Source: an uncultured Desulfobacteraceae bacterium
Lineage (GTDB): Bacteria > Desulfobacterota > Desulfobacteria > Desulfobacterales > Desulfatirhabdiaceae
Direction of reading: 5' to 3'
NCBI GenBank assembly: GCA_903953895.1
Contig: CAJBLH010000049.1
Span: 1 to 51,609 of the forward strand
Length of the DNA: 51,609 nucleotides
Shown: piece after piece, positions 10,325 to 31,070 of the stretch
Numbering within the stretch: the stretch's first letter is position 1
Layout: every line of letters starts with the position of its first letter
Notes under the pieces: generated by a model
The model's input: the letters and a program-made list of their open reading frames with translations, nothing else
What the model was told of the DNA's origin: nothing
Database searches by the model: none
Made by a program: the position numbers and the translations under genes

Positions 10325-10353
10325 TTGACAAATATCTTCCCTGTGGTTAATTT
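10325..10353 (+). promoter_or_regulatory. Sigma-70-type promoter for the HesB-like selenoprotein
   Basis: TTGACA at 10325-10330 is followed, after 17 bases, by TAATTT at 10348-10353. The predicted 5' leader then carries a 7-bp hairpin (CATACTG at 10362-10368, CAGTATG at 10375-10381). The remainder of the gap 10209-10436 shows nothing else. Confidence 0.55.
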
Positions 10354-10436
10354 CAGACATACATACTGATACAACAGTATGCCCGGTCCGCTTTTTTTTA
10401 AGTGAACTTTATTTGTTATATCTACAGGAGGGTGTC

Positions 10437-10754
10437 ATGATCGAGGTTACCCCTTCAGCTACGGAACAGATAGCTGAATATTTTAAAGGCAAGGAAGTCT
10501 CTCCCATCCGGATTTTTTTAAACGAAGGCGGATGAGGCGGGCCGAGTATGGCTATGGCTCTGGATGAGTCAAAAGAAACAGACGATATTTTTGAAATCGA
10601 TGGGTTTAAATATGTCGTGGATAAGGAATTCATGGTAAAGGCCAAGCCTATCAAGGTGGATTTTCTGGTCAGCGGTTTCAAAGTGGATTGCGGCATCGAT
10701 TTTACTTCCGGCTGCTCCAGTTGCGGGACCACCGGTTCCTGCTGTTCGACTTAA
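10437..10754 (+). CDS. HesB/IscA-like selenoprotein with in-frame UGA (Sec33)
   Basis: ATG 10437 follows a strong Shine-Dalgarno (AGGAGGGTGTC). Translation gives a 105-residue HesB/IscA-like protein only if TGA at 10533-10535 is read as selenocysteine: residues 28-38 become LNEGG-Sec-GGPSM. Frame and composition continue unbroken to TAA 10752-10754. The conserved GG-U-GGPSMAMALDE context and the Cys-rich tail (CSSCGTTGSCCST) match a HesB-like selenoprotein family known from deltaproteobacteria. Its role is unproven; A-type scaffold or redox functions are plausible. A standard gene caller would split this gene or keep only a 68-residue tail from ATG 10548. A convergent stem-loop separates it from the permease gene. 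Confidence 0.9.
10536..10565 (+). promoter_or_regulatory. Candidate bacterial SECIS element
   Basis: Immediately after the UGA the message can pair GGGCC (10539-10543) with GGCTC (10556-10560), and AG with CT inside, leaving a UAUGG loop about 12-16 bases downstream. Bacterial SECIS hairpins lie just 3' of the UGA within the coding region, so placement fits. The fold was judged by eye and the exact pairing is uncertain. Confidence 0.45.
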
Positions 10755-10785: not shown

Positions 10786-10829
10786 AGGGCGGATTGGTTT
10801 GAAGTCTCAATCTTTAACCGGTCCGCCCT
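10786..10829. terminator. Bidirectional stem-loop between convergent genes
   Basis: AGGGCGGA (10786-10793) pairs with TCCGCCCT (10822-10829), and GGTT pairs with AACC inside, making a long GC-rich hairpin between the selenoprotein gene and the converging permease gene. There is no strong T-run, so it may act as a weak terminator or as 3'-end protection. Confidence 0.55.
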
Positions 10830-18479: not shown

Positions 18480-19334
18480 CTATCTTACATACAACCAGAC
18501 AAGATTGACCAGAGAAAGTGTGATGCCCATGGCCCAGCCGTATCCGAGCATCCACCGCCAGTTCATACGGGCGGAAACGTTATCGATCCAGATTTCCACA
18601 AAATAGGTGATTCCCACCAGAAGAATTGCCCCCAGCGGGTTCGTTGTCCAAAAAAGGGAACAAAACCCCAGAACCAGAACGGTTTCATACCAGTGGGCGA
18701 TTTCAGTGAGCGCCAGAATCGGTCCGGAATAATCCGTGAGCAGTCCCTTGACGAGTTCCTGATGCGCATGGTGCGAGGTGGACAGATCGAAAGGGGATTT
18801 TCGGAGTTTGATGGTCAGCACAAAATTCAGCACCAGAAACAGAAACGGGAGTTTCAGCAGCAGGGGTTGTTTCAGCGCATAAACGGCTTCGATTTTAAAG
18901 CTGCCGGTATGCAGATAAATGCCGACAGCGATAAAAATCAAAAGCGGTTCATAGCAAAGAATCTGCAGGAGTTCTCGGTGCGCGCCGGCCTGACTGTACG
19001 GCGATGTGGAGGAAAAGGCGCCGACCACCAGAAAAACCGCACCCACGGCCTGAATGAAGAGAATCAGAAGCAGGTCGGAGCGGAGAAAAAACAGAACCAG
19101 CGATATGGATGCCGCCGTCAGATAGGCATTGGCGCAGAACGCCTGCCAGACATTAACCACCTGCTTTTCTTTTCCAAAAAGCTTGATCACATCATAAAAC
19201 GGCTGCAGCAACGGCGGGCCGATGCGGGACTGAAAGCGTGCGGTAAGAATCCTGTCGAAACCGGCGATCAAACCGCCGAGAAGGGGGCCGGCAACCAGTC
19301 CGGCAACAATCATCATAAGGACATGGCCTGTCAT
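18480..19334 (-). CDS. echB: Ech-type hydrogenase membrane subunit EchB (NuoH-like)
   Basis: This 284-residue polytopic membrane protein, homologous to NuoH/HycD, anchors the catalytic arm and forms part of the ion path. It shows GLIAGFDRILTARFQSRIGPPLLQPFYDVIKLF, the conserved NuoH-like cytoplasmic loop, and RKSPFDLSTSHHAHQELVKGL with its conserved acidic residues. The start at ATG 19334 overlaps the echA stop by four bases; the open frame extends further upstream but without family similarity. Confidence 0.92.
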   Translation of the reverse strand: MTGHVLMMIVAGLVAGPLLGGLIAGFDRILTARFQSRIGPPLLQPFYDVIKLFGKEKQVVNVWQAFCANAYLTAASISLVLFFLRSDLLLILFIQAVGAVFLVVGAFSSTSPYSQAGAHRELLQILCYEPLLIFIAVGIYLHTGSFKIEAVYALKQPLLLKLPFLFLVLNFVLTIKLRKSPFDLSTSHHAHQELVKGLLTDYSGPILALTEIAHWYETVLVLGFCSLFWTTNPLGAILLVGITYFVEIWIDNVSARMNWRWMLGYGWAMGITLSLVNLVWLYVR

Positions 19335-21238
19335 AGCGCACCTCCCACGATCAGGGTCAACAGCATGCCGGCAGCCAGGTTGATCCAGACCGTCAGCTTC
19401 CTTTCGCCGAAAATATTCGACAGGTAGTAATTTCCCGCCTCTGCTTTGATCAGTTTGTTCATGGGTCCGAGAAAGACTCTGGGCTCGGCGGTGTGAATGC
19501 CGCTGAGATAAGGCGGGCAGATACGTGCCTGGGTGGCGCCCCGGACGGCCCAGATCGATTGCAGAAAGCCAAGAACGGCGATCAGGCAAAGGGGCAGTAC
19601 GGCAAAAACGCCATACGCATTTTCCAGAATACCGTTTTTAAGAGAATAAGGCGGCGCATAATTCAGGTTCATCGCGGCAGTGAACAGCCCTCTGTATATC
19701 CAGGGAACGGCGATACTGAGAATCCCGGCCCCCGTACAAAGCGACAGCAATGCCCCCCACGTCAGCGCCGGCTGCTTCTCGAGATGGAATATCCCGGCAA
19801 ACGGATCACTCATCAGCGTTCCGGCCCACCGGGCCCAGTACATGGCTGTCAGGGCGCTGCCGACAGCCGCCAGAATGATGACGAAAATATTTCCGGCGGC
19901 TGCCTCCATGGCCATCCACTTACCAAGAAGCAGGCCGAAAGGAGGCATGATCATCATCACGACCCCCATCACCGTGATGAGCGCCGTCAAAGGCATTTTG
20001 GCATACAGACCGCGCATGTCTTCGATATCACGGCTTTCGATATGCTGCTCGATCGTACCCACACACAGAAAGAGCATGGCCTTGATGACGGCATGGAAAA
20101 TGATGAGCAGGACAGCGGCGGTCATGGACTCCGGTGTATTGAGGCCGGCACAGGCGAAAATGAGACCGAGATTGCTGATGGTGGAATAGGCCAGCACTTT
20201 TTTGCCGTTGCTCTGACCAAGCGCCAGTGCGGCTCCGGCCAGAAACGTGAATGCACCGAAAATAGCGATGCAGGGGCTCAAGAAACTTCCCTGCATGGCC
20301 GGCGCCAGTCGGAGTGCCAGATAGACACCGACCTTGACCATGGTGCTGGAATGGAGCAGGGCCGAGACCGGTGTTGGGGCGACCATGGCCCCTACCAGCC
20401 AGCTCTGCATGGGAAACTGGGCGGATTTGACGAAACAGGCGAAACACAGCAGCGACAGAGACAGAAAAGAAAGTCCGGCGCCGGCGGGTGTGCGGATGAC
20501 CTGCTGCATGTCGATACTCCCAATGTTGCGGTAGATCATGATCAGCGACACGATAAACGCCAGACAGCCGATACTGTTCATCCACAATGCCCGGACGGAA
20601 TTCCGGACGGCGATCTCGGTTCCATCGTGGCCGATGAGCAGAAATGAGCAGAGGGTGGTGGCTTCGAAAAAGAAGTGAATGACGGTCATATCGTTGGAAA
20701 GCACCAAACCGTTCATAACCCCGAGAAAAAACAGCATGACGAAGAAAAACCGAGGCTGCCGGCTGGTTGCCGGATGCAGGTGTTCTTCGTGGTTTTTCAT
20801 GTAGGGAATAGCCTGAAAGCAGATGATTGACCCGACGATGGATATGATCAGCACCATGATGAGCGATAGGTTATCGCAGTAAAAAGCCTGAGTGGTCGGA
20901 TGGTCCGCGATCATGAACACTTCAAACCAGATGACAAGGATAATCTGCAAGGCGGCGGGGATGATGACAAGAATACTGCGATGTTTGATTCCGTAATACA
21001 GGATGGCAAACATCAGGATGAAATCCGGAATCTGAATGAGGCCATGGACATCGAGGCCGAAAACGGTTTCCGGAGAAAACGTGAAGGGAACATACGAGAT
21101 CAGAAGCAGTGAGCAAGTGATCAGAATACATCCGGTTGACAGGACAATGAATGACCGGACCGGGGCGGAGCGGATTGCATAGCAGCTCAGCGCACCCAGA
21201 AAAGGCAGGAGTATCAGCATGAAAGTAATCGTTTGCAT
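19331..21238 (-). CDS. echA: Ech-type hydrogenase antiporter-like subunit EchA (NuoL/NuoM-like)
   Basis: This 635-residue membrane protein of the Mrp antiporter/NuoL family provides the ion-translocating module. It has more than 14 hydrophobic helices. Family marks are [25 protein letters not shown] (helix-5 Glu), [56 protein letters not shown] (in overlapping segments, with the conserved Lys and His), and [13 protein letters not shown]. The length matches EchA. It starts 32 bases after the hdrA stop, linking the Hdr and Ech halves of the cluster. Confidence 0.92.
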   Translation of the reverse strand: [635 protein letters not shown]

Positions 21239-21270
21239 GGCGTTTTCATCCTCGTTGTCTGTGGGTCAGG

Positions 21271-24200
21271 TCAAAATTTTCGCTCATCGAAAAGGGCATC
21301 GATACCGGCAATCAACTGGTCGTCGGTCCAGTGCTTGAGCGCAATGGCTCCGGCCGGACATTCCGAAACACAGATACCGCACCCCATGCAGGCCGATGGC
21401 GGAATCTCCGACACGCCGTCCGGATTGATCCGCGGCGCACTGAAAGGGCATATCCGGACACAGATGAGACATGCGGCGCATTTATCCGCATCGACTTGCG
21501 CAACGGCCGCAGATGTTGTCATGATTTCTTTGCACAGGATTTTGACGGCCTGTTGCCCCGCACTTTTGGCCATGGTAATGGATTCTTCGATAAACCTGGG
21601 GCTGTGCGCCAAACCGGCCAGAAAAATGCCGGAAGTTGCAAATTCCACGGGCCTTAATTTGACATGGGCCTCCAGAAAAAATCCCTCATCGGTTGTCGGA
21701 AGCTTCAGGAGATGGGCGATCTGCTTGGTCCCTTCATCCGGCCGAATACCGGCACTCAACACCACGATATCGGGTTCGACCCGAAAATCCTGGTGAGAGC
21801 TTCTGTCCGTGAAATCGACGGTCAACGTGCCGTTTGCATCAAACACCTGCGGTTTTTCATCCGGATGATATCGGAAAAAAAGCGCACCCTGCTGTCTGGA
21901 TTCAGCATAATAGAGTTCTTTGAATCCAAACGTTCGGACGTCCCGGTATAACACGACAACTTTGGCCTCGGGATTCATTTTTTTGAGCTGGATACTGTTT
22001 TTGACGGCTGCGGCGCAACACACGCGGCTGCAGTAAGAAAAACCAGGTTCACGTGATCCGACGCACTGGATCATGACGATACGGTTCAGCCGTTTTGCCC
22101 AGGACGGATCATCGATCATCCGTTTTGAAAATGCGACTTGCGTCAGTATTCGATCATCTTTTCCATAACGATATTCCACAGGTTCATAAGGCCGACCGCC
22201 TGTGGCGACAATAACTGCTCCATACTGAATCGAAACGGGCCCATCTTGTGTTTCGATGGTTCCCTGAAATGCGCCGCAATGTCCGCTATGGGATACCAGC
22301 CTGCTGTTTAAATGAACCGAAATATTGGCATGATGGGTGACACGTTCCGTCAGGTATCGAATCGACCTTGCCGGAGAATTTCCTTCGAGCGTCAGGCTCA
22401 GATTTCTGGCAAAACCACCCAAACTGTCATTTTTTTCAACCAGATAGACTTTGAATCCCTGGTCTGCAATGGTCAGCGCAGCACTCAGCCCGGCAATGCC
22501 TCCTCCGATCACCAGACCCTCGTTTACAACCCGATAGGATTTATCATACAGCGGCTCCAGTCGCCTGGCCCGGCCCACACCGGCATGTATCAGTTCCATG
22601 GCTTTCTGTGTGGCTTTATCCGGCTCATTGCCATGTACCCAGGAACACTGGTTCCGGATATTGGTCAGCTCGAACAGGTAAGGATTCAGGCCGGCATCCT
22701 TCAGTGTATTCTGAAACAGGGACTCATGCGTTTTGGGCGAGCAGGCGGCCACCACGACCCGGTTCAGGCGGTGTGTTTTGATCAATTCGACGATTTTCGA
22801 CTGGGTTTCCGTGGAACAGGTAAACATGAAGTCGCTGGCAACAACCACGTTCGGCAATTTTTTGACATCCGCCAGAACCTTTTGGATGTTCACGACACCG
22901 GCGATATTGGTTCCGCAGTGGCAGACCAGAACGCCCATCCGGGGCTCGGCATCGATGGGATATTCATCGGGTCGTTTTTCAACGGTAATCTCGGTATTTC
23001 TGGCAGAACCGATGAAAATGGATGCTTCGGCTGCGGCCGCTCCCGCCTGAATGATGGTTTCGGGAATGTCTTTGGGTGTTTCGATGCCTCCGCACGCGAA
23101 AATACCGGGCCGGGATGTCGTCATGGGTTCATCGAAATCGGCGGACAGATACCCGTATGGATTGGTTGTCAGCCCCACCTGTCGGGCAAGTTCGGTAAAC
23201 GCCTGCGACGGTTTGAAGCCGCTCGAAAGCACAACCAGTTCGTATTCTTCTTCAATTTTTCGATTTAAATGATGATCGAAAGTTTCGATGATCAGATTCT
23301 CGTTTTCAGGGTTCAAATAAATCTGGGAAATCATGGATCGCCGGAATTGCACGCCGTGTCGATTGCGGGCACGATCGACATAGTCGTCGAATCCTTTGCC
23401 ATGGGCCCGAATGTCCATAAAATAAATTGTCGCCTGCGTATCGGGTTCATGGTCGCGCGTCAGTACCGCCTGCTTGACGGCGTGCATGCAGCAGACCGAA
23501 GAACAGAACGGTCGGTTTCGGGCCGCATCCCGAGACAGGACACATTGAATCCAGGCGATTTTTTCGGGTACCTTGCCGTCGGAGGGGCGCAGCAGATGAC
23601 CGGCATACGGGCCTGTTGCGGACAGCATCCGTTCAAATTGCAGAGACGTTACCACATTCCGATATCTTCCGTAACCGAACTCGCCTTCCGTTGCTGTCAA
23701 CGCCAATTCAAAACCCGTTGAAATCACGACTGCACCGGCCATGAGGGTCAGAATTTCCGGTTTTTGATCGTAATCCACGGCGCCGGCCGGACAGATTTTC
23801 CTGCAGATTCCGCATTTGCCCCGGGTCAATTTCAGGCAATGTTCGGCATCCAGGGCGTATTTCAAGGGAACCGCCTGGGGAAAGGTCAGAAATGCGGCTT
23901 TCCGTGTTCCCAGTTCACCATTGAACGGATCAGGAACTTTTTGGGGACATTTCTCAGCACATTTGCCGCAGGCGATGCATTTTTCTTCGTTGATATAACG
24001 GGGCTGTTTTTCAATCGTAGCGGTAAACCGCCCGGGGCTTCCGTTCAAGTCGATCATTCGGCTGAGGGGCAGAATTTTGATATTTACATGGCCGGCGGCC
24101 TGTACCAGTTTTGGAGAAAACATGCAGGTCGAGCAGTCATTGGTTGGAAACGTCTTATCCAGACCCGCCATGATACCGCCGAGAGAATGTGTTTGTTCGA

Positions 24201-24312
24201 CCAGATAGACAAAAAAGCCCGTATCCGCCAGATCGATGGCGCACTGAATACCTGCAATACCGCCACCGACGACGATGACCTTTCCAATCGGATTTTTAAA
24301 ATTTGATTCCAT
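21271..24312 (-). CDS. hdrA: Double-length HdrA: flavin/iron-sulfur electron-bifurcating subunit
   Basis: The 1013-residue protein holds two HdrA-like flavin modules. Module 1 (1-440): GGGIAGIQCAIDLAD (16-30), the CSTC pair at 60-63, an inserted ferredoxin with CIACGKCAEKCP (112-123) and CGICRKIC (167-174), and CSSVCC (270-275). Module 2 (about 455-930): the HdrA N-terminal cluster region (C464, C466, C499, C524, C556), then GGGIAGLSAALTIAD (603-617) and CSRVCC (761-766). The C-terminus adds two [4Fe-4S] motifs, CAACLICVRICP (945-956) and CMGCGICVSECP (975-986). HdrA binds the FAD at which electron bifurcation occurs; two flavin sites in one chain are unusual. No Shine-Dalgarno is visible before ATG 24312, which is 114 bases after the hdrB stop. 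Confidence 0.9.
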   Translation of the reverse strand: MESNFKNPIGKVIVVGGGIAGIQCAIDLADTGFFVYLVEQTHSLGGIMAGLDKTFPTNDCSTCMFSPKLVQAAGHVNIKILPLSRMIDLNGSPGRFTATIEKQPRYINEEKCIACGKCAEKCPQKVPDPFNGELGTRKAAFLTFPQAVPLKYALDAEHCLKLTRGKCGICRKICPAGAVDYDQKPEILTLMAGAVVISTGFELALTATEGEFGYGRYRNVVTSLQFERMLSATGPYAGHLLRPSDGKVPEKIAWIQCVLSRDAARNRPFCSSVCCMHAVKQAVLTRDHEPDTQATIYFMDIRAHGKGFDDYVDRARNRHGVQFRRSMISQIYLNPENENLIIETFDHHLNRKIEEEYELVVLSSGFKPSQAFTELARQVGLTTNPYGYLSADFDEPMTTSRPGIFACGGIETPKDIPETIIQAGAAAAEASIFIGSARNTEITVEKRPDEYPIDAEPRMGVLVCHCGTNIAGVVNIQKVLADVKKLPNVVVASDFMFTCSTETQSKIVELIKTHRLNRVVVAACSPKTHESLFQNTLKDAGLNPYLFELTNIRNQCSWVHGNEPDKATQKAMELIHAGVGRARRLEPLYDKSYRVVNEGLVIGGGIAGLSAALTIADQGFKVYLVEKNDSLGGFARNLSLTLEGNSPARSIRYLTERVTHHANISVHLNSRLVSHSGHCGAFQGTIETQDGPVSIQYGAVIVATGGRPYEPVEYRYGKDDRILTQVAFSKRMIDDPSWAKRLNRIVMIQCVGSREPGFSYCSRVCCAAAVKNSIQLKKMNPEAKVVVLYRDVRTFGFKELYYAESRQQGALFFRYHPDEKPQVFDANGTLTVDFTDRSSHQDFRVEPDIVVLSAGIRPDEGTKQIAHLLKLPTTDEGFFLEAHVKLRPVEFATSGIFLAGLAHSPRFIEESITMAKSAGQQAVKILCKEIMTTSAAVAQVDADKCAACLICVRICPFSAPRINPDGVSEIPPSACMGCGICVSECPAGAIALKHWTDDQLIAGIDALFDERKF

Positions 24313-24426
24313 AATGATTATACTAAACTTTCATGAATAAACCGGCAACCCCACGCATGAAAATGACATTCACCCGCAGTAACCTGATCACCGATTACTT
24401 TCTGCGTTTCGGAGTCAGAAATATTT

Positions 24427-25263
24427 TCACAGAAAATGTTTTGCCCGTAACAGCGGAACAGGATCCGTGAAATGCATTTTAAACCACTGCGGATCAGTAA
24501 TCTTGTTGAATCCCAAGCGCAGCAGCTCCGTAAAATAAAATACAGGAATACGTTTTTCGGGCCGATCTTTCTGTAGGATATCCAGATTGGACTGACACAG
24601 GGGACATGAAACCACAATGGCCTGGGCTCCGGCCTGCCCGGCTTTTTCCAGGATCCTTCCGGCCAGCGATTCGCCGATCTGCCTGCGGGCAATGCCGATA
24701 CTGGCGCCGCAACACGTTGATTTATAGGACCAGTCGATCACCTCGGCGCCGACTGCTGTGGCGATGCGATCCAGCGTCTGGGGATTTTCATAATCCGTAT
24801 ACCCGGTGATCTTCGGCGGACGAACCATCTGGCAGCCGTAGTAGCAGACCACTTTCAGCCCGACTAACGGTTTCACCACCCGTTCTTTGATCGATGCAAT
24901 CATCCGGGGCTCTGCAAAAAAACGTGTCATATCATGGACCTGAATATCTCCTGTTACCGACCAGGGGATATCGAACAGTTTTTTCTGGATCATCTGCTGT
25001 GAAAACCGCAGTCGGTTGAAGCACATGGCGCATGGCGAGACGATATCCCGCCCCATTTTCTCCGCAGCCGCCAGATTCCTGGCCGGAAGAAGTACCGACA
25101 TCGATTGGCTGAGACTGTGAGCGGCCGTGGCCCCGCAGCAGGTCCAGTCCGCAATTTCCACCAGATCGATTTCCAGTTCCGTGAAAACAGCGGAAATAGA
25201 CCGAGCATAATCATTGGCCATGCCTTCGAGGGAACAGCCTGGATAAAAAGACAGTTTCATCAA
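24427..25263 (-). CDS. hdrB: Heterodisulfide reductase-like subunit B
   Basis: This 278-residue protein has the two CCG domains that bind the noncubane [4Fe-4S] clusters where disulfides are reduced. CCG copy 1 includes GCSLEG near the start and DWTCCGATAAHS (about 40-51); copy 2 includes CYYGCQ and STCCGASIGIA, followed by CPLCQSNLDIL. All Cys are present, so the site looks active. In methanogens it reduces CoM-S-S-CoB; in a sulfate reducer a DsrC-type or other thiol disulfide is the likely partner, by inference. It overlaps hdrC by four bases. Confidence 0.93.
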   Translation of the reverse strand: MMKLSFYPGCSLEGMANDYARSISAVFTELEIDLVEIADWTCCGATAAHSLSQSMSVLLPARNLAAAEKMGRDIVSPCAMCFNRLRFSQQMIQKKLFDIPWSVTGDIQVHDMTRFFAEPRMIASIKERVVKPLVGLKVVCYYGCQMVRPPKITGYTDYENPQTLDRIATAVGAEVIDWSYKSTCCGASIGIARRQIGESLAGRILEKAGQAGAQAIVVSCPLCQSNLDILQKDRPEKRIPVFYFTELLRLGFNKITDPQWFKMHFTDPVPLLRAKHFL

Positions 25264-25901
25264 TCCATTTCTCCAGAAATCCGGTGATGGGCTTTTTGCA
25301 GTTCCTTGATCGCCCTGGATCGAGGTGTAAGCAGTTTGAGCCTTCCCTTCCGCAGCAACGACATCCCCACAAGAATTTCATCTTTTAAAGAGCCATCTTT
25401 CATTTTTTCTTTGAGAATATTCAGTTTCGAATAATAGGCGCTCATCAACCGAATTTCATTGACGCGACCGGATGTTCTCAGCACATCGAGAAATGTCTGG
25501 TGAAATACGGCCAGACTTTCATATTCGGGAGCGACAGACGATTGCGCCGCAATATTTCGCAGATGATTGATGGTTTCCGCCACATCCACTTCATTGGGGC
25601 AATATGTCGTACACATTTCACAGGACAGGCACACCCAGATCGTAGCGGATTTCAGCAGCTCCTCGCGCCACCCCAACTGAATGTAGCGCATGACCTGGTG
25701 CGGCTTGATATCCATATAGTGGCTGACCGGGCAGGCATTGGTGCAGCGTTCGCATTGATAACAAGCTGAAATGTTGACACCGGCCTCTCCCTGGATTCTG
25801 TTCAGAAAAAAATCCCCCCGGTCTCCGATCCGTTTTCGTTCTTTAGCGGGTTGGCGTGCCGGTTGTCCTGCCGATGCTTCCGGGTGATGGTGATGTTCCA
25901 T
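25260..25901 (-). CDS. hdrC: Heterodisulfide reductase-like subunit C
   Basis: This 213-residue electron carrier links HdrA to HdrB. Its two [4Fe-4S] motifs are CYQCERCTNACPV (about 47-59) and CLSCEMCTTYCPN (about 89-101). The C-terminal part is helical, as in other HdrC proteins. The N-terminus reads MEHHHHPEAS and is followed by a basic stretch, so it has a natural His cluster. The hdrB start overlaps its stop. It follows the maturation protease by 35 bases. Confidence 0.92.
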   Translation of the reverse strand: MEHHHHPEASAGQPARQPAKERKRIGDRGDFFLNRIQGEAGVNISACYQCERCTNACPVSHYMDIKPHQVMRYIQLGWREELLKSATIWVCLSCEMCTTYCPNEVDVAETINHLRNIAAQSSVAPEYESLAVFHQTFLDVLRTSGRVNEIRLMSAYYSKLNILKEKMKDGSLKDEILVGMSLLRKGRLKLLTPRSRAIKELQKAHHRISGEMD

Positions 25902-25936
25902 TATCCCATTGTCTCCTGTGTACTGATGAATGGTAT

Positions 25937-26389
25937 TTAAAGCATTTTACGGCTGACATGCTCGGCGATCTGTCGGACGATCCCATCCTGCAGACATGCC
26001 ATCTGCGGAGACAGACTTTCTCCGAAAAGGCATTCTGTAACGATTGCCACGCCATAGATACCTACAACCTCCGGAACCGCAATCCCCACATCCTTTCCCA
26101 ATTGAAGTATCTCGAAAAAATGCATCCCGTGGGATGAAAACAGGTGAATGGCTTCTTCCGCAGCCGCCAGTTTCACCACCGTACCCGGTGGATACCGCCG
26201 GTTCTGAATGGCGTCGATCACAAAAACCCGGTCGTAACCCGTTACGATATCCAGGAGATCGAGGCCGATCAGGGCACAAGTACGCACATCCGTGTCTGCA
26301 AAAATTCCATCGAGTGCTTGGGCCACATGCAATCCGACCCCGTCATCGGAGAGAATGGGATTTCCCATACCCAGGATTAATGTCTTCAT
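25937..26389 (-). CDS. [NiFe]-hydrogenase maturation endopeptidase
   Basis: This 150-residue HyaD/HycI-family protease clips the C-terminal peptide of a [NiFe]-hydrogenase large subunit after nickel insertion. It begins MKTLILGMGNPILSDDGVGLHV, with the nickel-sensing Asp in SDDGVG, then DLLDIVTGYDRVFVIDAIQ with the second acidic site, and SSHGMHFFEIL with the His. ATG 26389 is one base beyond the mvhA stop. Its likely client is MvhA, which carries a 26-residue tail after DPCLSCATH; EchE has none. Confidence 0.92.
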   Translation of the reverse strand: MKTLILGMGNPILSDDGVGLHVAQALDGIFADTDVRTCALIGLDLLDIVTGYDRVFVIDAIQNRRYPPGTVVKLAAAEEAIHLFSSHGMHFFEILQLGKDVGIAVPEVVGIYGVAIVTECLFGESLSPQMACLQDGIVRQIAEHVSRKML

Positions 26390-26390
26390 G

Positions 26391-27857
26391 TTACGATCTC
26401 CGGACTGTCCGGACCACCCGGCCTCCGGTATCACGGATATTCACCAAGAGCGGCATCTGCCCGGGCAGAGCGTGTGTGGCGCAGGACAAGCAGGGATCAT
26501 AGGCGCGAAACGCCATTTCGACCCGGTTCAGCAGCCCCTCCCTGACTTCTCCCCCCTTGATGAACTCTTTGGCCGCCTTTTTGACCGACAGCGAGATGGG
26601 GGCCGCATTGTTCTGCGTGGCCACGATGAGATTGATTTTTGTCAACAGCCCGCGGTCATCTGTCTCGTAATGGTGGAAGAGCGTTCCGCGGGGGGCTTCC
26701 ACACAGCCGATGCCGACGCGTTTCAGGCGCAGGTTCATATTGCGGATGTCCTTACTGGTCAAAAGCGGATCGCTTGCGATTATTTGATTGTGTTCCGCGG
26801 CCTGGAGGGCGCAGATCAGCCGAGCCCAGTGCATGGCCAGGGTGTGGTGCGCCGGCTTGCCGCCCAGGACGTCGAACATTTGCGCGTACTCCATCTGGGC
26901 CAGCGGGGTTGCCATGCCGTCTGCAACATTCAACCTGGCCAGCGGAGCCACCCGATAGAGCGAAGTTTCCGGTCCCTCTACCAGTCCTTTCCAGCCGATG
27001 TGTTTGAGAAAATTCATCTTGATATACGTCCAGGGCTCGACCCACTCGCCGATATGATCCACATAATCCTTCGGATCGAACCGAAACAACGCTTTGCCGT
27101 TGGAATCGATAACCTTGACGGTGCCGTCGTAAAAGCTGACCCGGTCGTTTTCATCCACCAGAGACATGTAACAGGTCTTCAACTGGTAGGCATCGCTTTG
27201 AAGGAGATCGAGATTTTTCTTGTTGCGCAGCACCACCTCTTTATAAATATCCATTGCAGAGCGTGCAAATGCGACGGAGTCATCGGCGATTTCCTTGATT
27301 CGCCGGCGCTCATCGGCCGTGATGCCCCGGGAGACACCTCCCGGTAAACCGCCTTCGGGGTGAGGCGGCTTGCTGAAAACCAACCGGATGATTTCCCGAT
27401 TTTTCTTTCGGATATCGATGACCCTGGCGCCGATTTCTTTCCCCAACTTGCGGATGACGCCAAGGATATTGCGTTCAGCCGGGTCCGCATCCGGCCCGAC
27501 CACAAAATCCGGGGCAGCCAGAAAAAAGAAATGGACATAATGGTCTTCGATATAAAAGGCATTGAATTCTAGCTGCCGGATCAGCCTGGCCGTGGGTGTC
27601 GGCGCCACATCGTAGAGATCGTCCAGCGCCTTGGTGGCGGCCATATGGTGAGCCGACGGACATATGCCGCAGATATTGGGAGCGATCCGTGTCATCTCCT
27701 CGGCAGGACGGCCCAGACAAAACCGCTCGAAACCCCTCAGTTCCGATACCTGCCAGAAGGCGTCCGCCACATCCCCTTGATCGTTTAGAAATATTTCGAT
27801 CTTGCCGTGGCCTTCCAGTCGGGTAATGGGATCGATGGTAAGAGTCTTTCCCGTCAT
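26391..27857 (-). CDS. mvhA: F420-non-reducing-type [NiFe]-hydrogenase large subunit MvhA (group 3)
   Basis: This 488-residue cytoplasmic catalytic subunit oxidises H2. The first nickel motif is APNICGICPSAHH (CGIC at 63-66) and the second is DPCLSCATH (454-462). TLTIDPITRLEGHGKIE near the start is the usual N-terminal signature. The 26 residues after His462 would be removed by the protease encoded just downstream. It overlaps mvhG by four bases. Group 3c (Mvh/Vhu-type) assignment rests on sequence look and on the adjacent mvhD and hdr genes. Confidence 0.94.
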   Translation of the reverse strand: MTGKTLTIDPITRLEGHGKIEIFLNDQGDVADAFWQVSELRGFERFCLGRPAEEMTRIAPNICGICPSAHHMAATKALDDLYDVAPTPTARLIRQLEFNAFYIEDHYVHFFFLAAPDFVVGPDADPAERNILGVIRKLGKEIGARVIDIRKKNREIIRLVFSKPPHPEGGLPGGVSRGITADERRRIKEIADDSVAFARSAMDIYKEVVLRNKKNLDLLQSDAYQLKTCYMSLVDENDRVSFYDGTVKVIDSNGKALFRFDPKDYVDHIGEWVEPWTYIKMNFLKHIGWKGLVEGPETSLYRVAPLARLNVADGMATPLAQMEYAQMFDVLGGKPAHHTLAMHWARLICALQAAEHNQIIASDPLLTSKDIRNMNLRLKRVGIGCVEAPRGTLFHHYETDDRGLLTKINLIVATQNNAAPISLSVKKAAKEFIKGGEVREGLLNRVEMAFRAYDPCLSCATHALPGQMPLLVNIRDTGGRVVRTVRRS

Positions 27858-28843
27858 GATCCTTCCTCCGTGACCTTTTTGGCACTTCTTCTGCCCAGAA
27901 TGGATGAAGGCTGCGTGAAACGGTACAGGTAGCCGACCGGATCATCGAAGGAATCGATGGCCTCCTTGATTTCATCATCCCGTTCGACAACCAGCAGAGA
28001 GGCGAGTGTAGACAGAAATTTGGGCTCCGATCCCACAACCCCCGGCAAGGGTCCGAAACAGCCCCGACAGGGGACATTGATCCGGATGCAGGTCTCTCCG
28101 CACCCGTTACGTGTCGCAGGCCCCATGCAGATGATTCCGGCCGCCAGGAAACACGCGTCCGGATCTGCCTCCACCTCATGAATACGATTGAAGGATCTGA
28201 TTTCCATGCGGTTTGGTTTTCGCTGGTTGCGGGGGCAGGTATCGCAGAGAGCTTTTCGGGGCGCCAGGGTGGAGCCTTTTGGCGGAAGATCGCCAGCGAG
28301 CACGGCATTGATGGCATTGACGATCAATTCGGGCGGCGGCGGGCATCCGGGCAGGTAGTAATCCACATCGATGGCCTGATCCAGCGTGAAAACATGTTCA
28401 AAAAAATGTGGAAGTGTCAGTTTGCCACCGTTTCGAACCGTCTCCGGCTGCGGGAAATTTCCGTCCGGATTGACCACGGTTGGCGCATCCCGGTAGACCC
28501 AGTTGAAAATGTCGTCTTTGCTATGGAAGTTGGCCAGGCCGGGGGTGCCGCCAAAGCAGGCGCAGGCACCCATGGCCATCACCACCTGGGATTTTTTTCG
28601 CAGCAGTTCCGCCATTTCCTGGTGGTCGGAGTTTCTAATGGAGCCGGAAAGAATACTGAGCGCAATCTCAGCATCCGGCATCTGCTGAATACTTCTGTAC
28701 TTGAAATCCATAGCCAGCGGCCACAAAACGATATCGACGGCATCGGCCACCTGCAGAATCACCTCGTTCAGGTCGACAATGGATGCATCGCACCCCCCGC
28801 AAGCCCCGAGCCAGCAAATCGCAACCTTCAGTTTTTCCGCCAT
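27854..28843 (-). CDS. mvhG: Hydrogenase small subunit MvhG (group 3)
   Basis: This 329-residue iron-sulfur subunit carries electrons from the nickel site towards MvhD/HdrA. It starts MAEKLKVAICWLGACGGCDAS with the proximal-cluster Cys (10, 15, 18), followed by GACACFGGTPGL and DYYLPGCPPPPELIV. The second half has CDTCPRNQR, AGIICMGPATRNGCGETC and NVPCRGCFGP for the two further clusters. No Tat signal is present, so it is cytoplasmic. It overlaps mvhA by four bases and follows mvhD by 19. Confidence 0.93.
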   Translation of the reverse strand: MAEKLKVAICWLGACGGCDASIVDLNEVILQVADAVDIVLWPLAMDFKYRSIQQMPDAEIALSILSGSIRNSDHQEMAELLRKKSQVVMAMGACACFGGTPGLANFHSKDDIFNWVYRDAPTVVNPDGNFPQPETVRNGGKLTLPHFFEHVFTLDQAIDVDYYLPGCPPPPELIVNAINAVLAGDLPPKGSTLAPRKALCDTCPRNQRKPNRMEIRSFNRIHEVEADPDACFLAAGIICMGPATRNGCGETCIRINVPCRGCFGPLPGVVGSEPKFLSTLASLLVVERDDEIKEAIDSFDDPVGYLYRFTQPSSILGRRSAKKVTEEGS

Positions 28844-28862
28844 ATGGCATTCTCCATCTGCC

Positions 28863-29258
28863 CTAAACCTGTTTCACCGGGCCCAGTCCGGACAGGTGAT
28901 GTTGCATCTGAGCGATCAACTGCGGGATTTTTCTGCCTTCCGGATCAATGTCCAGTTCCATGGTCAATCGTTCCGGCTCAATCCCGAAGGCATCCAGGAC
29001 TTTGTGAATCAAGAATACTTTTTTTCGGGTCTGATAATTGCCGTCCTGGAAATGGCAGTGTCCTTCGGAACACCCGAGGATCATCACCCCGTCGGCTCCT
29101 GCCCTGAAGGCTTTCAGGATATGGCTGGTATCGATTTTGCCGCTGCATACCACCGGTATCCAGTTCAGAATAGTGGGGCCGATGGTTTCCGCATCGCTCA
29201 GATATCCCCACCCGAAATTGCAGGAAAAGCAGACGATTTTGGGATTATAAGTTTCCAT
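28863..29258 (-). CDS. mvhD: MvhD-like [2Fe-2S] linker subunit
   Basis: This 131-residue protein connects the hydrogenase to HdrA. The Cys ligands are visible: CFSC (10-13), VVCSGKID (C38), and LGCSEGHCHFQDGNY (C63 and C68). Length and pattern match free-standing MvhD. Some relatives use selenocysteine in this family, but here all positions are Cys. It lies 15 bases after the GltD-like gene and 19 before mvhG. Confidence 0.92.
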   Translation of the reverse strand: METYNPKIVCFSCNFGWGYLSDAETIGPTILNWIPVVCSGKIDTSHILKAFRAGADGVMILGCSEGHCHFQDGNYQTRKKVFLIHKVLDAFGIEPERLTMELDIDPEGRKIPQLIAQMQHHLSGLGPVKQV

Positions 29259-29273
29259 GCCCGGTCTCCTTTG

Positions 29274-31070
29274 TCATTGCGCCAGCGCGGCGTAGACCGT
29301 CTCGATGCGTTGCTCCATCGAGTCCCCCACCATCCGTCGGGCGTTGGAAGGACAGGCGACCACACACAGGCCGCAGGATTTGCATTTGAAGCTGTCCGTC
29401 GCAGACACCCGCTTGTTCTCGAAGTCTTTGGACTGCGCTGCACCATAATAACACATCGATACACAGATTCCGCAACCGCAGCAGCGCTCGGAATTGACTT
29501 CGACGCCAGACAGGCTTTTCTGTATCCCAACGGAAATACAGGCCTTGCAGGAAATGCAAGGCCCGCAGGTCAGGCAGCGCTTGGCCTCGTCAATGGCCTC
29601 GGGTAGGGTGAAACCCCTTTCGAACAACCGGAAGTGCATCCGCTTTTCCGGCGGTATCCAGAGAACTTCGGGTTCAGACTGGTAATGACGCCGGCGGGGA
29701 ATATCCTGGGACTCGAAGAGGCGGCTGCGCCCCTCCCGCAGGCTCAGTTCGCGTAGGTATCGTGCGATGGACTCGGCAGCCGTCAGGCCGTCTTTCATGG
29801 CATCCACCATGAATCCGATCCGGCGCACATCCCCGCCGATGAAAATCCATTCCTTATTTGAATTCTGCAGGGTGAGCGGATCGACGACAAGTTGCCCCCG
29901 CTCGTTCAGAAGGCCGTCGGTCTGCAAAGAGAGAATATCCGGCCCCTGTCCCACAGTAATAATGAGAACATCCCCTTCCAGGGTCAGAATATCGGCCATG
30001 TCAAATTGCGGGTTGAACCCTCTGGCATCGTAGACACTCAGGCAGCGCGGACATTCAACTTTCTGCATCCGTTCGCCCGTACCGATGATCCGGCTGACGC
30101 CACGGGAATAAATGATCCGGATTCCCTCCTCCCAGGCCCCGCGGATCTCTTCCCAATCCGCCGGAACGCGATCTCTGGAACTGCGGTCTTCGCACTCGAG
30201 GCAGACCATGGTGGTTTCTCCGGCCAGCCTGCGCGCAGTTCGGGCCACATCGAAGGCCACATTTCCGCCTCCGATGACCAGAACTTTCTTCCCACGGAAA
30301 TAATTAGGTTTGATGTAGCCGTGGCTGACTTCATAAAGAAACGTATGGCCGTACATGACCCCGGACAGATCCTGACCCGCTACCTCTTTTCCGCCGAAAT
30401 TCAGGGTTCGCGGAGCAGGCGTTCCCTGGGCCAGAAAGACTGCATGATAGCCGTCGTTGCGCAGCTTTTCGACGGTCCACTTGCCTTCGCCGATCCGGGT
30501 GTTGTATTTGACATCGACGCCCACCAGCCTGACGAGGTTTTCCAGGGTTGCTGCCAGCACCTTTTCCGGCAGCCGATAACGCGGAATCAGCCACAGAGCC
30601 CCGCCCAATCGGTCAGAAGCTTCGAAGATCGTCACCCGGTATCCGCGCTTGCTCAGATCGAAAGCACACATCAGACCGGCCGGCCCGCCGCCCACAATGG
30701 CCACGTTTTCCCGGTTTTTGACAAGCGGGTATTCGTCGCGTTTTTCCATCTGGTAGATATAGGTATCGGCAATGAAGCGTTTGAGAAGCCGCCGCCGGAT
30801 AGCGCCGCCCTTGGATTGGTAGTTGCACTCCAGCTCGCAGATACCGCAGACATAGCCGCAAACAGGGAAGAAGGGATTCTTTTCGTAGAGGTAGTCGCCG
30901 ATCTGAACGATACCTTCTGTTGCCGCCTTGGGATCTTCGGGAAGCAGGGAGATGAGGACATTGGTTCGCTGGATGTCCTCGTTGATGGGACACCGCACCT
31001 GACACGGCGGGAGAAACTGTTTGACTGCGGGTTCAACCCCGGCCCATCCTGTGCTGATCGTTCTCCACAT
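29274..31070 (-). CDS. GltD-like FAD/iron-sulfur NAD(P)-dependent oxidoreductase with C-terminal ferredoxin domains
   Basis: This 598-residue protein has a GltD/NfnB-type layout. An N-terminal [4Fe-4S] domain has CQVRCPINEDI and CGYVCGICELECN. An FAD fold follows with GGGPAGLMCAFDLSKRG (about 129-145), then an NAD(P) fold with VIGGGNVAFDVARTARRL. The C-terminal ferredoxin part has CLTCGPCISCKAC, CCGCGICVSMC and CKSCGLCVVACP. It could move electrons between NAD(P)H and ferredoxin or the Hdr complex. It is the first gene of the cluster and starts at ATG 31070 behind GAGGGG. No glutamate synthase large subunit is nearby, so amino acid synthesis is unlikely. Confidence 0.9.
   Translation of the reverse strand: MWRTISTGWAGVEPAVKQFLPPCQVRCPINEDIQRTNVLISLLPEDPKAATEGIVQIGDYLYEKNPFFPVCGYVCGICELECNYQSKGGAIRRRLLKRFIADTYIYQMEKRDEYPLVKNRENVAIVGGGPAGLMCAFDLSKRGYRVTIFEASDRLGGALWLIPRYRLPEKVLAATLENLVRLVGVDVKYNTRIGEGKWTVEKLRNDGYHAVFLAQGTPAPRTLNFGGKEVAGQDLSGVMYGHTFLYEVSHGYIKPNYFRGKKVLVIGGGNVAFDVARTARRLAGETTMVCLECEDRSSRDRVPADWEEIRGAWEEGIRIIYSRGVSRIIGTGERMQKVECPRCLSVYDARGFNPQFDMADILTLEGDVLIITVGQGPDILSLQTDGLLNERGQLVVDPLTLQNSNKEWIFIGGDVRRIGFMVDAMKDGLTAAESIARYLRELSLREGRSRLFESQDIPRRRHYQSEPEVLWIPPEKRMHFRLFERGFTLPEAIDEAKRCLTCGPCISCKACISVGIQKSLSGVEVNSERCCGCGICVSMCYYGAAQSKDFENKRVSATDSFKCKSCGLCVVACPSNARRMVGDSMEQRIETVYAALAQ

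Follow-up and report, generated by a model that had tools for sequence, protein, structure and literature searches.

The locus described here raises two questions: whether a TGA codon within a gene of the IscA/HesB family is decoded as selenocysteine (Sec), and what a protein with Sec at that position would do. The window, the whole stretch of DNA that was analysed, comprises 51,609 nucleotides (contig CAJBLH010000049.1) from an uncultured Desulfobacteraceae bacterium, a host related to sulfate reducers. A first-pass annotation, made from the nucleotide letters alone, had proposed a HesB-like selenoprotein at this place. The following features are discussed.

10437–10754, + strand: predicted Sec-containing gene of the IscA/HesB family, 105 codons and a TAA stop (translation with TGA read as U; NF038090, 110.9 bits; PF01521, 26.7 bits)
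10533–10535, + strand: TGA codon for Sec33, flanked as GG-U-GGP; in a profile alignment with 1nwb, 1s98 and 1r94 it falls on the first cluster-ligand Cys of IscA
10556–10570, + strand: bacterial SECIS-like hairpin with comparative support; arms GGCUC (10556–10560) and GAGUC (10566–10570), apical loop UGGAU (10561–10565)
10713–10748, + strand: C-terminal Cys-rich tail, residues 93–104, CSSCGTTGSCCS (at least three tail Cys in 125/125 homologues; pLDDT below 50 for residues 93–105)
10426–10432, + strand: Shine-Dalgarno sequence AGGAGGG (from the sequence; AGGAGG also in L028–L032)
10325–10353, + strand: probable promoter, TTGACA (10325–10330), 17-nt spacer and TAATTT (10348–10353), from an alignment of six sequences

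The frame starts at ATG 10437, has TGA 10533–10535 as codon 33 and ends at TAA 10752–10754; translation of the coding part (10437–10751) gives a product of 105 residues with a single in-frame TGA. Under translation table 11, one + strand ORF of at least 60 amino acids is listed here, 10548–10754 (68 amino acids, from an internal ATG), and a caller unaware of Sec would therefore drop the N-terminus including Sec. Truncation by automated callers had been predicted in the first-pass annotation. The prediction is qualified by the existence of the curated model NF038090: since it models exactly this subfamily, the NCBI pipeline at least has the means to give the gene its name. That coding sequence lies on both sides of the TGA is borne out by the 105-codon frame and by constraint past the TGA. 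Over codons 34–88, dN/dS of the window gene is 0.015/0.51 against L026 and 0.047/0.70 against L019, and the ratio ranges from about 0.03 to 0.09 in comparisons with L026, L019 and L021; dS is saturated for more distant copies. These values indicate that selection acts downstream of the TGA.

In homologues, the same codon is either TGA or Cys. Among 49 loci found by protein search it is TGA in 45 and Cys in four, the latter being copies in close relatives. When added genomes of the phylum are combined with the protein-search loci, 125 distinct homologous proteins are obtained, 93 with Sec (TGA) and 32 with Cys; this 93:32 is not a frequency, because searches favour strong matches and the regions were partly picked for Cys copies. 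L025 and L027 (43 and 41 bits) were left out of the 125. Exchange of UGA and Cys among homologues, which serves as a criterion for bacterial selenoproteins, is thus found in this family. The motif U[GAS]GP occurs in 93/93 Sec proteins. The alignment with relatives and Cys homologues keeps the position as Sec or Cys, and conservation continues downstream, which is not the picture of an ordinary stop with nothing conserved behind it.

A selenoprotein implies selA, selB, selC and selD elsewhere in the genome, and the genome of the window (G000) has all of them above their cut-offs: selA at 597 bits (cut-off 268), selB at 382 bits (cut-off 242), tRNA-Sec (selC) at 75.5 (gathering score 47) and two selD genes at 363 and 358 bits (cut-off 125). 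The sel set is therefore complete. Each selD gene itself has one in-frame TGA near the N-terminus, in the contexts TCGUAAK and GAGUASK; the two lie at G000:C153:24984–25907 (L010) and G000:C184:13088–14011 (L011), and a partial selD match is found about 10 kb from the second (G000:C184:23581–23730). With the sel genes and the Sec/Cys conservation, both the observation in the first-pass annotation and its interpretation as a selenoprotein are upheld.

A bacterial SECIS is described as a stem-loop just 3' of the UGA whose small apical loop includes a guanosine (excerpt of PMC1088965). The window hairpin agrees with this excerpted description: its loop is UGGAU and starts after 25 nt from the UGA, and the pairing is kept in Sec genes. 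Counted with one fixed offset across rows, the full set of five pairs forms in 89/93 Sec genes, the remaining four having four pairs each, as against the full set in 1/32 Cys genes; shifting the register by −2, −1, +1, +2 or +3 codons gave zero five-pair cases. The hairpin codons mostly spell M/L-A-L-D-E-P/S, with arms GGCUC and GAGYC enclosing UGGAY. Codon choice within the hairpin is nearly fixed. The Ala codon is GCT in 87/88 Sec genes versus 3/20 Cys genes (at other positions, these Sec genes use GCT for 104 of 569 Ala codons), the Leu codon is CTG in 93/93 Sec genes, and the Glu codon is GAG in 89/93. Since Cys genes also lean to GAG (16/21), the Glu codon taken alone says little. All four GAA codons stand opposite GTT (Val), which is a double compensatory change; the compensatory arms are GGUUC/GAACC in four genes, UGCUC/GAGCA in one and GACUC/GAGUU in one. 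Folding energy by itself was not significant (48 nt, z −1.47; 18 of 200 shuffled sequences reach an equally good fold) and was rejected as proof of a SECIS, 48 of the 576 synonymous spellings of MALDES would allow full pairing, and Rfam gave no relevant match, one irrelevant match lying below its gathering score. The possible SECIS that had been noticed directly 3' of the TGA thus gains its support from the comparison of Sec and Cys genes, and not from folding energy or Rfam. The comparison strongly suggests that the hairpin is a SECIS in all but experiment.

Were the TGA a true stop, either translation from ATG 10548 would give the functional product, of 68 residues, or the gene would be in decay. 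The table 11 ORF at 10548–10754 is what such a reading can draw on. However, codons 1–32 are kept in frame, dN is low on either side of the TGA, TGA and Cys alternate at one codon in 125 proteins, the hairpin codons are near-fixed in TGA genes, and the sel set is complete. Termination at codon 33 is already contradicted by these data and is extremely improbable. Almost certainly, SelB and tRNA-Sec decode UGA 33 as Sec under the direction of the hairpin at 10556–10570.

The product matches NF038090 (IscA_HesB_Se) at 110.9 bits (cut-off 85) over model positions 1–101 of 101, and this model matches 40/40 members of alignment A1 at E 0.001. It shares with NF038090 the full-length match and the selenium of the model name, and differs in nothing of substance; by profile score, the gene is an ordinary member of a family already known. 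The label of HesB-like selenoprotein holds in this form, although the product falls short of TIGR01911 (HesB_rel_seleno), the HesB-like model cited in reviews, scoring 33.9 bits against a cut-off of 66.35 with a match that stops at residue 65. HesB-like selenoproteins in the sense of TIGR01911 share Sec at the HesB cysteine and the motif UxGP (excerpt of PMC13188914), and the HesB family has been reported to fail to cluster as one family (excerpt of PMC1914089). IscA, SufA and ErpA, covered by TIGR00049, have in common with the window family the fold, the position of the first ligand residue and a Cys-containing tail, whereas the window family has Sec for Cys and at least three tail Cys, rarely as CGC, and the window protein misses the TIGR00049 cut-off (41.3 bits versus 58.8). 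PF01521 is matched at 26.7 bits (cut-off 26.3; model positions 3–87 of 110). By these scores the gene is a relative of the canonical A-type carriers but lies outside them, and the same holds for the older model of HesB-like selenoproteins. Among named relatives, the nearest that turned up belong to MAGs labelled uncultured Desulfobacteraceae and Deltaproteobacteria, with protein identity of 97–98%. The family is also present in a cultured relative, Desulfosarcina cetonica (L049).

A strong Shine-Dalgarno sequence and a promoter had been assigned to the start of the gene. AGGAGGG stands, and so does the −35 element TTGACA, invariant in 6/6 aligned sequences (window and L028–L032); the −10 element TAATTT is weak, being matched in 3/6, and a consensus promoter scanner did not list the TTGACA/TAATTT promoter. 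Between promoter and start, at about 10361–10381, there is a perfect 7-bp inverted repeat, CATACTG/CAGTATG with a 6-nt spacer, which was considered as an operator. It is intact in the window alone (1/6 sequences); the core TACTG-6-CAGTA is kept in L029 and L030 and absent from L028, L031 and L032. Another inverted repeat, GGGCGGA...TCCGCCC, was found by eye at 10787–10828 between two convergent genes; it has no T-run, and a terminator scan did not list it.

The gene neighbourhood gave no useful pointer to function. ORFs surrounding the window gene and the 49 loci, 50 places in all, fell into 212 clusters. The commonest neighbours, present at 16 loci at most, are housekeeping genes and vary from lineage to lineage: NDK, a macro-domain protein, a SpoU-type methylase, a Zn_ribbon_8 protein and an enoyl-CoA hydratase. 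No Fe–S assembly gene recurs consistently beside the family gene across these places. A TauE-type exporter lies near the gene on the opposite strand in 3/50 (window, L029 and L031). Farther along the window, four ORFs scanned with Pfam on the − strand (19331–31070) include redox genes, with a proton antiporter-type subunit, a 1012-residue Fer4/FAD protein, another FAD oxidoreductase and a nickel-dependent hydrogenase match to the first 79 profile positions.

The AlphaFold2 model (pLDDT 82.7; residues 93–105 under 50) has as its best PDB match in Foldseek 1x0g, an IscA with a [2Fe-2S] cluster (E 4e-7), and in VIA-align 1s98, E. coli IscA (Z 12.3, 91 aligned residues, 2.9 Å). The window protein is thus predicted to have the IscA fold. 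Sec33 aligns with the GCSG cysteine of IscA. In T. elongatus IscA, three cysteines (C37, C101 and C103) are cluster ligands (excerpt of PMC8593673), and the window protein differs from it in having Sec at the first position, equivalent to C37. The tail, with at least three Cys in 125/125 homologues, has one more than the two tail ligands of IscA. The tails are Gly/Ser/Cys-rich, with 3–5 Cys where residue 33 is Sec and as many as 7 where it is Cys, and mostly CxxC-like; the CGC of IscA occurs in 6/93 Sec tails, and the model does not predict the tail geometry.

PF01521 proved too insensitive as a genome-wide probe (0/8 genomes at E 0.001, the window gene also missed), and the searches relied on TIGR00049, which recovers the window gene. 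On G000 it gave exactly one match, the window gene, which is its own positive control. A TIGR00049 member over the cut-off was found in two of 47 distinct genomes (G095 and G362), 43 of the 47 having been picked for carrying the NF038090 family. Weak extra matches of 24–36 bits, outside the over-cut-off family loci, occur in G002, G193, G043, G022, G215 and G394, and four family-less genomes (G013, G020, G023 and G035) gave zero matches. Control genomes had a match in 8/14, all over the cut-off. Per these searches, the window protein appears to be the only one of the A-type fold in its genome. A-type carriers, which canonically consist of a single complete PF01521 domain, have been reported absent from many Delta-Proteobacteria (excerpt of PMC2682760). 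The survey may have missed the gene, because it is interrupted by UGA, divergent and barely over the PF01521 cut-off. A protein of this type as sole A-type carrier was not found in titles and abstract openings of the open-licence literature.

The Sec position, the hairpin, the sel genes, the fold and the lack of a canonical relative in the searches are supported by computation. On the mechanism proposed here, Sec33 would replace the first cluster-ligand cysteine of A-type carriers, would bind an Fe–S cluster or iron together with at least two Cys of the flexible tail, and the bound cluster or iron would be handed to target proteins. A cluster site could be completed by one Sec with three Cys, within a monomer or across a dimer. 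To our knowledge, no Fe–S cluster has a natural Sec ligand. Cluster binding, the selenolate ligand and transfer to targets are steps that we infer; that the protein binds a cluster or iron, passes it on and replaces the canonical carrier not found in the genome is about an even bet. As a whole, a Sec-decoded carrier of the IscA/HesB fold is the best explanation, with a probability of roughly 55%.

Several observations speak against a carrier. No operon link to Fe–S genes was seen at the 50 places, the tail is CxxC-like rather than CGC, and 175 of the 395 genomes in the phylum sample gave no match to the family, so that the function would be dispensable or otherwise met in many of them. In addition, a disruption mutant of a HesB-like selenoprotein in Methanococcus maripaludis still fixes nitrogen, which argues against an essential carrier role there (excerpt of PMC11097638). 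Instead of holding a cluster, Sec33 might form a selenenylsulfide with a tail Cys and reduce peroxide, disulfide or polysulfide. Redox roles are assumed for most selenoproteins that are still uncharacterised (excerpt of PMC13188914), and the flexible tail, with at least three cysteines throughout the family, could give the resolving thiol; yet the motif is U[GAS]GP in all Sec proteins, not UxxC, and the fold matches IscA, which leaves such a redox protein a doubtful candidate. Sec33 and the Cys tail might also handle selenium, sulfur or metal ions other than in Fe–S form, by carriage of persulfide or selenide or by sensing or storage of metal. The richness of the tails in Gly, Ser and Cys fits this, and DsrR of Allochromatium vinosum is among the fold matches, but the sole sulfur-related neighbour noted is the TauE-type exporter, and this function is improbable.

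The carrier proposed here has Cys counterparts, which share the profile family and the tail (L016–L018, L023 and L033; the tandem partners L107–L116 and others) but have Cys at position 33 and, in 31 of 32, fewer than five hairpin pairs. An unrooted tree of the 125 proteins, built after masking residue 33 and with few columns for its number of rows, requires at least 13 switches between Sec and Cys, 12 of which are forced by well-supported branches. The direction of change on this tree is inferential, and Sec is presumably ancestral because the hairpin is shared. The Cys copies of the closest relatives (L016–L018, L023 and L033) are placed among Sec sequences and keep the loop UGGAU, with 3/5 pairs in four copies and 1/5 in L018. 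An earlier count gives two Sec-to-Cys events in HesB-like proteins, with remnant SECIS-like structures (excerpt of PMC1794560).

Tandem pairs of family genes, on the same strand and 64–702 nt apart, occur in 16 of 39 fetched regions with a hit, nine of the 16 having been fetched because two hits were already known there. Each of the 16 pairs consists of one Sec and one Cys gene, the Sec gene coming first in 12 and the Cys gene in four. No such tandem HesB pairs were found in titles and abstract openings of the open-licence literature. In family f49 (L101, L105, L106, L115, L116 and L132–L135), the twins cluster by lineage and not by residue, and three sets are seen in which Cys twins join the Sec twins beside which they lie; either the twins arose repeatedly or gene conversion has acted on them. 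Sec and Cys copies can also be unlinked, for example in G003 and G005, two genomes from the same genus as the window. The Cys paralogues are best read as copies switched from Sec to Cys, probably serving as a back-up when selenium is short.

In G213, the single family match is a Cys copy (L130, 3072–3383) with 5/5 hairpin pairs intact and the loop UAGAU instead of UGGAU. This genome gave no match to selA, which is present in the other 37 of 38 genomes, and its best selB match is partial, 186 bits and under the cut-off (360–393 in six others). Its best tRNA-Sec match, 47.6 bits against a gathering score of 47 (73.5–77.9 in six other genomes), is not decisive, and the argument for loss therefore rests on selA and selB. 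Sec decoding seems to have been lost in G213, and the pattern is what such a loss should leave. G235 and G275 also have a lone Cys copy and yet carry selA, so that the Cys-only state needs no loss of decoding.

The window gene itself is an ordinary member, and it is the comparison that makes this uncharacterised selenoprotein family testable, the sole-carrier and Sec/Cys-twin patterns adding moderately to what membership alone would offer. Possible, though less likely than not, is a further reading, in which the A-type Fe–S carrier is a selenoprotein in much of the phylum, perhaps overlooked in the survey (excerpt of PMC2682760), with a selenolate ligand and with repeated Cys twins. If true, this would give a natural example in which a genetically encoded selenolate ligates a transferable Fe–S cluster, and the repeatedly evolved Cys twins would be a back-up for selenium shortage or a heteromer partner. 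The genome of the window, in which one protein of the A-type fold was found, with Sec at the cluster-ligand position, offers a test case; since it is apparently the sole protein of its type there, its job is easier to test. Relatives supply adjoining natural Sec/Cys twins, and G213, seemingly without Sec decoding, has Cys in the only copy found. A small soluble protein could thus answer why an anaerobe pays for selenium at this position and whether a selenolate can serve a cluster carrier.
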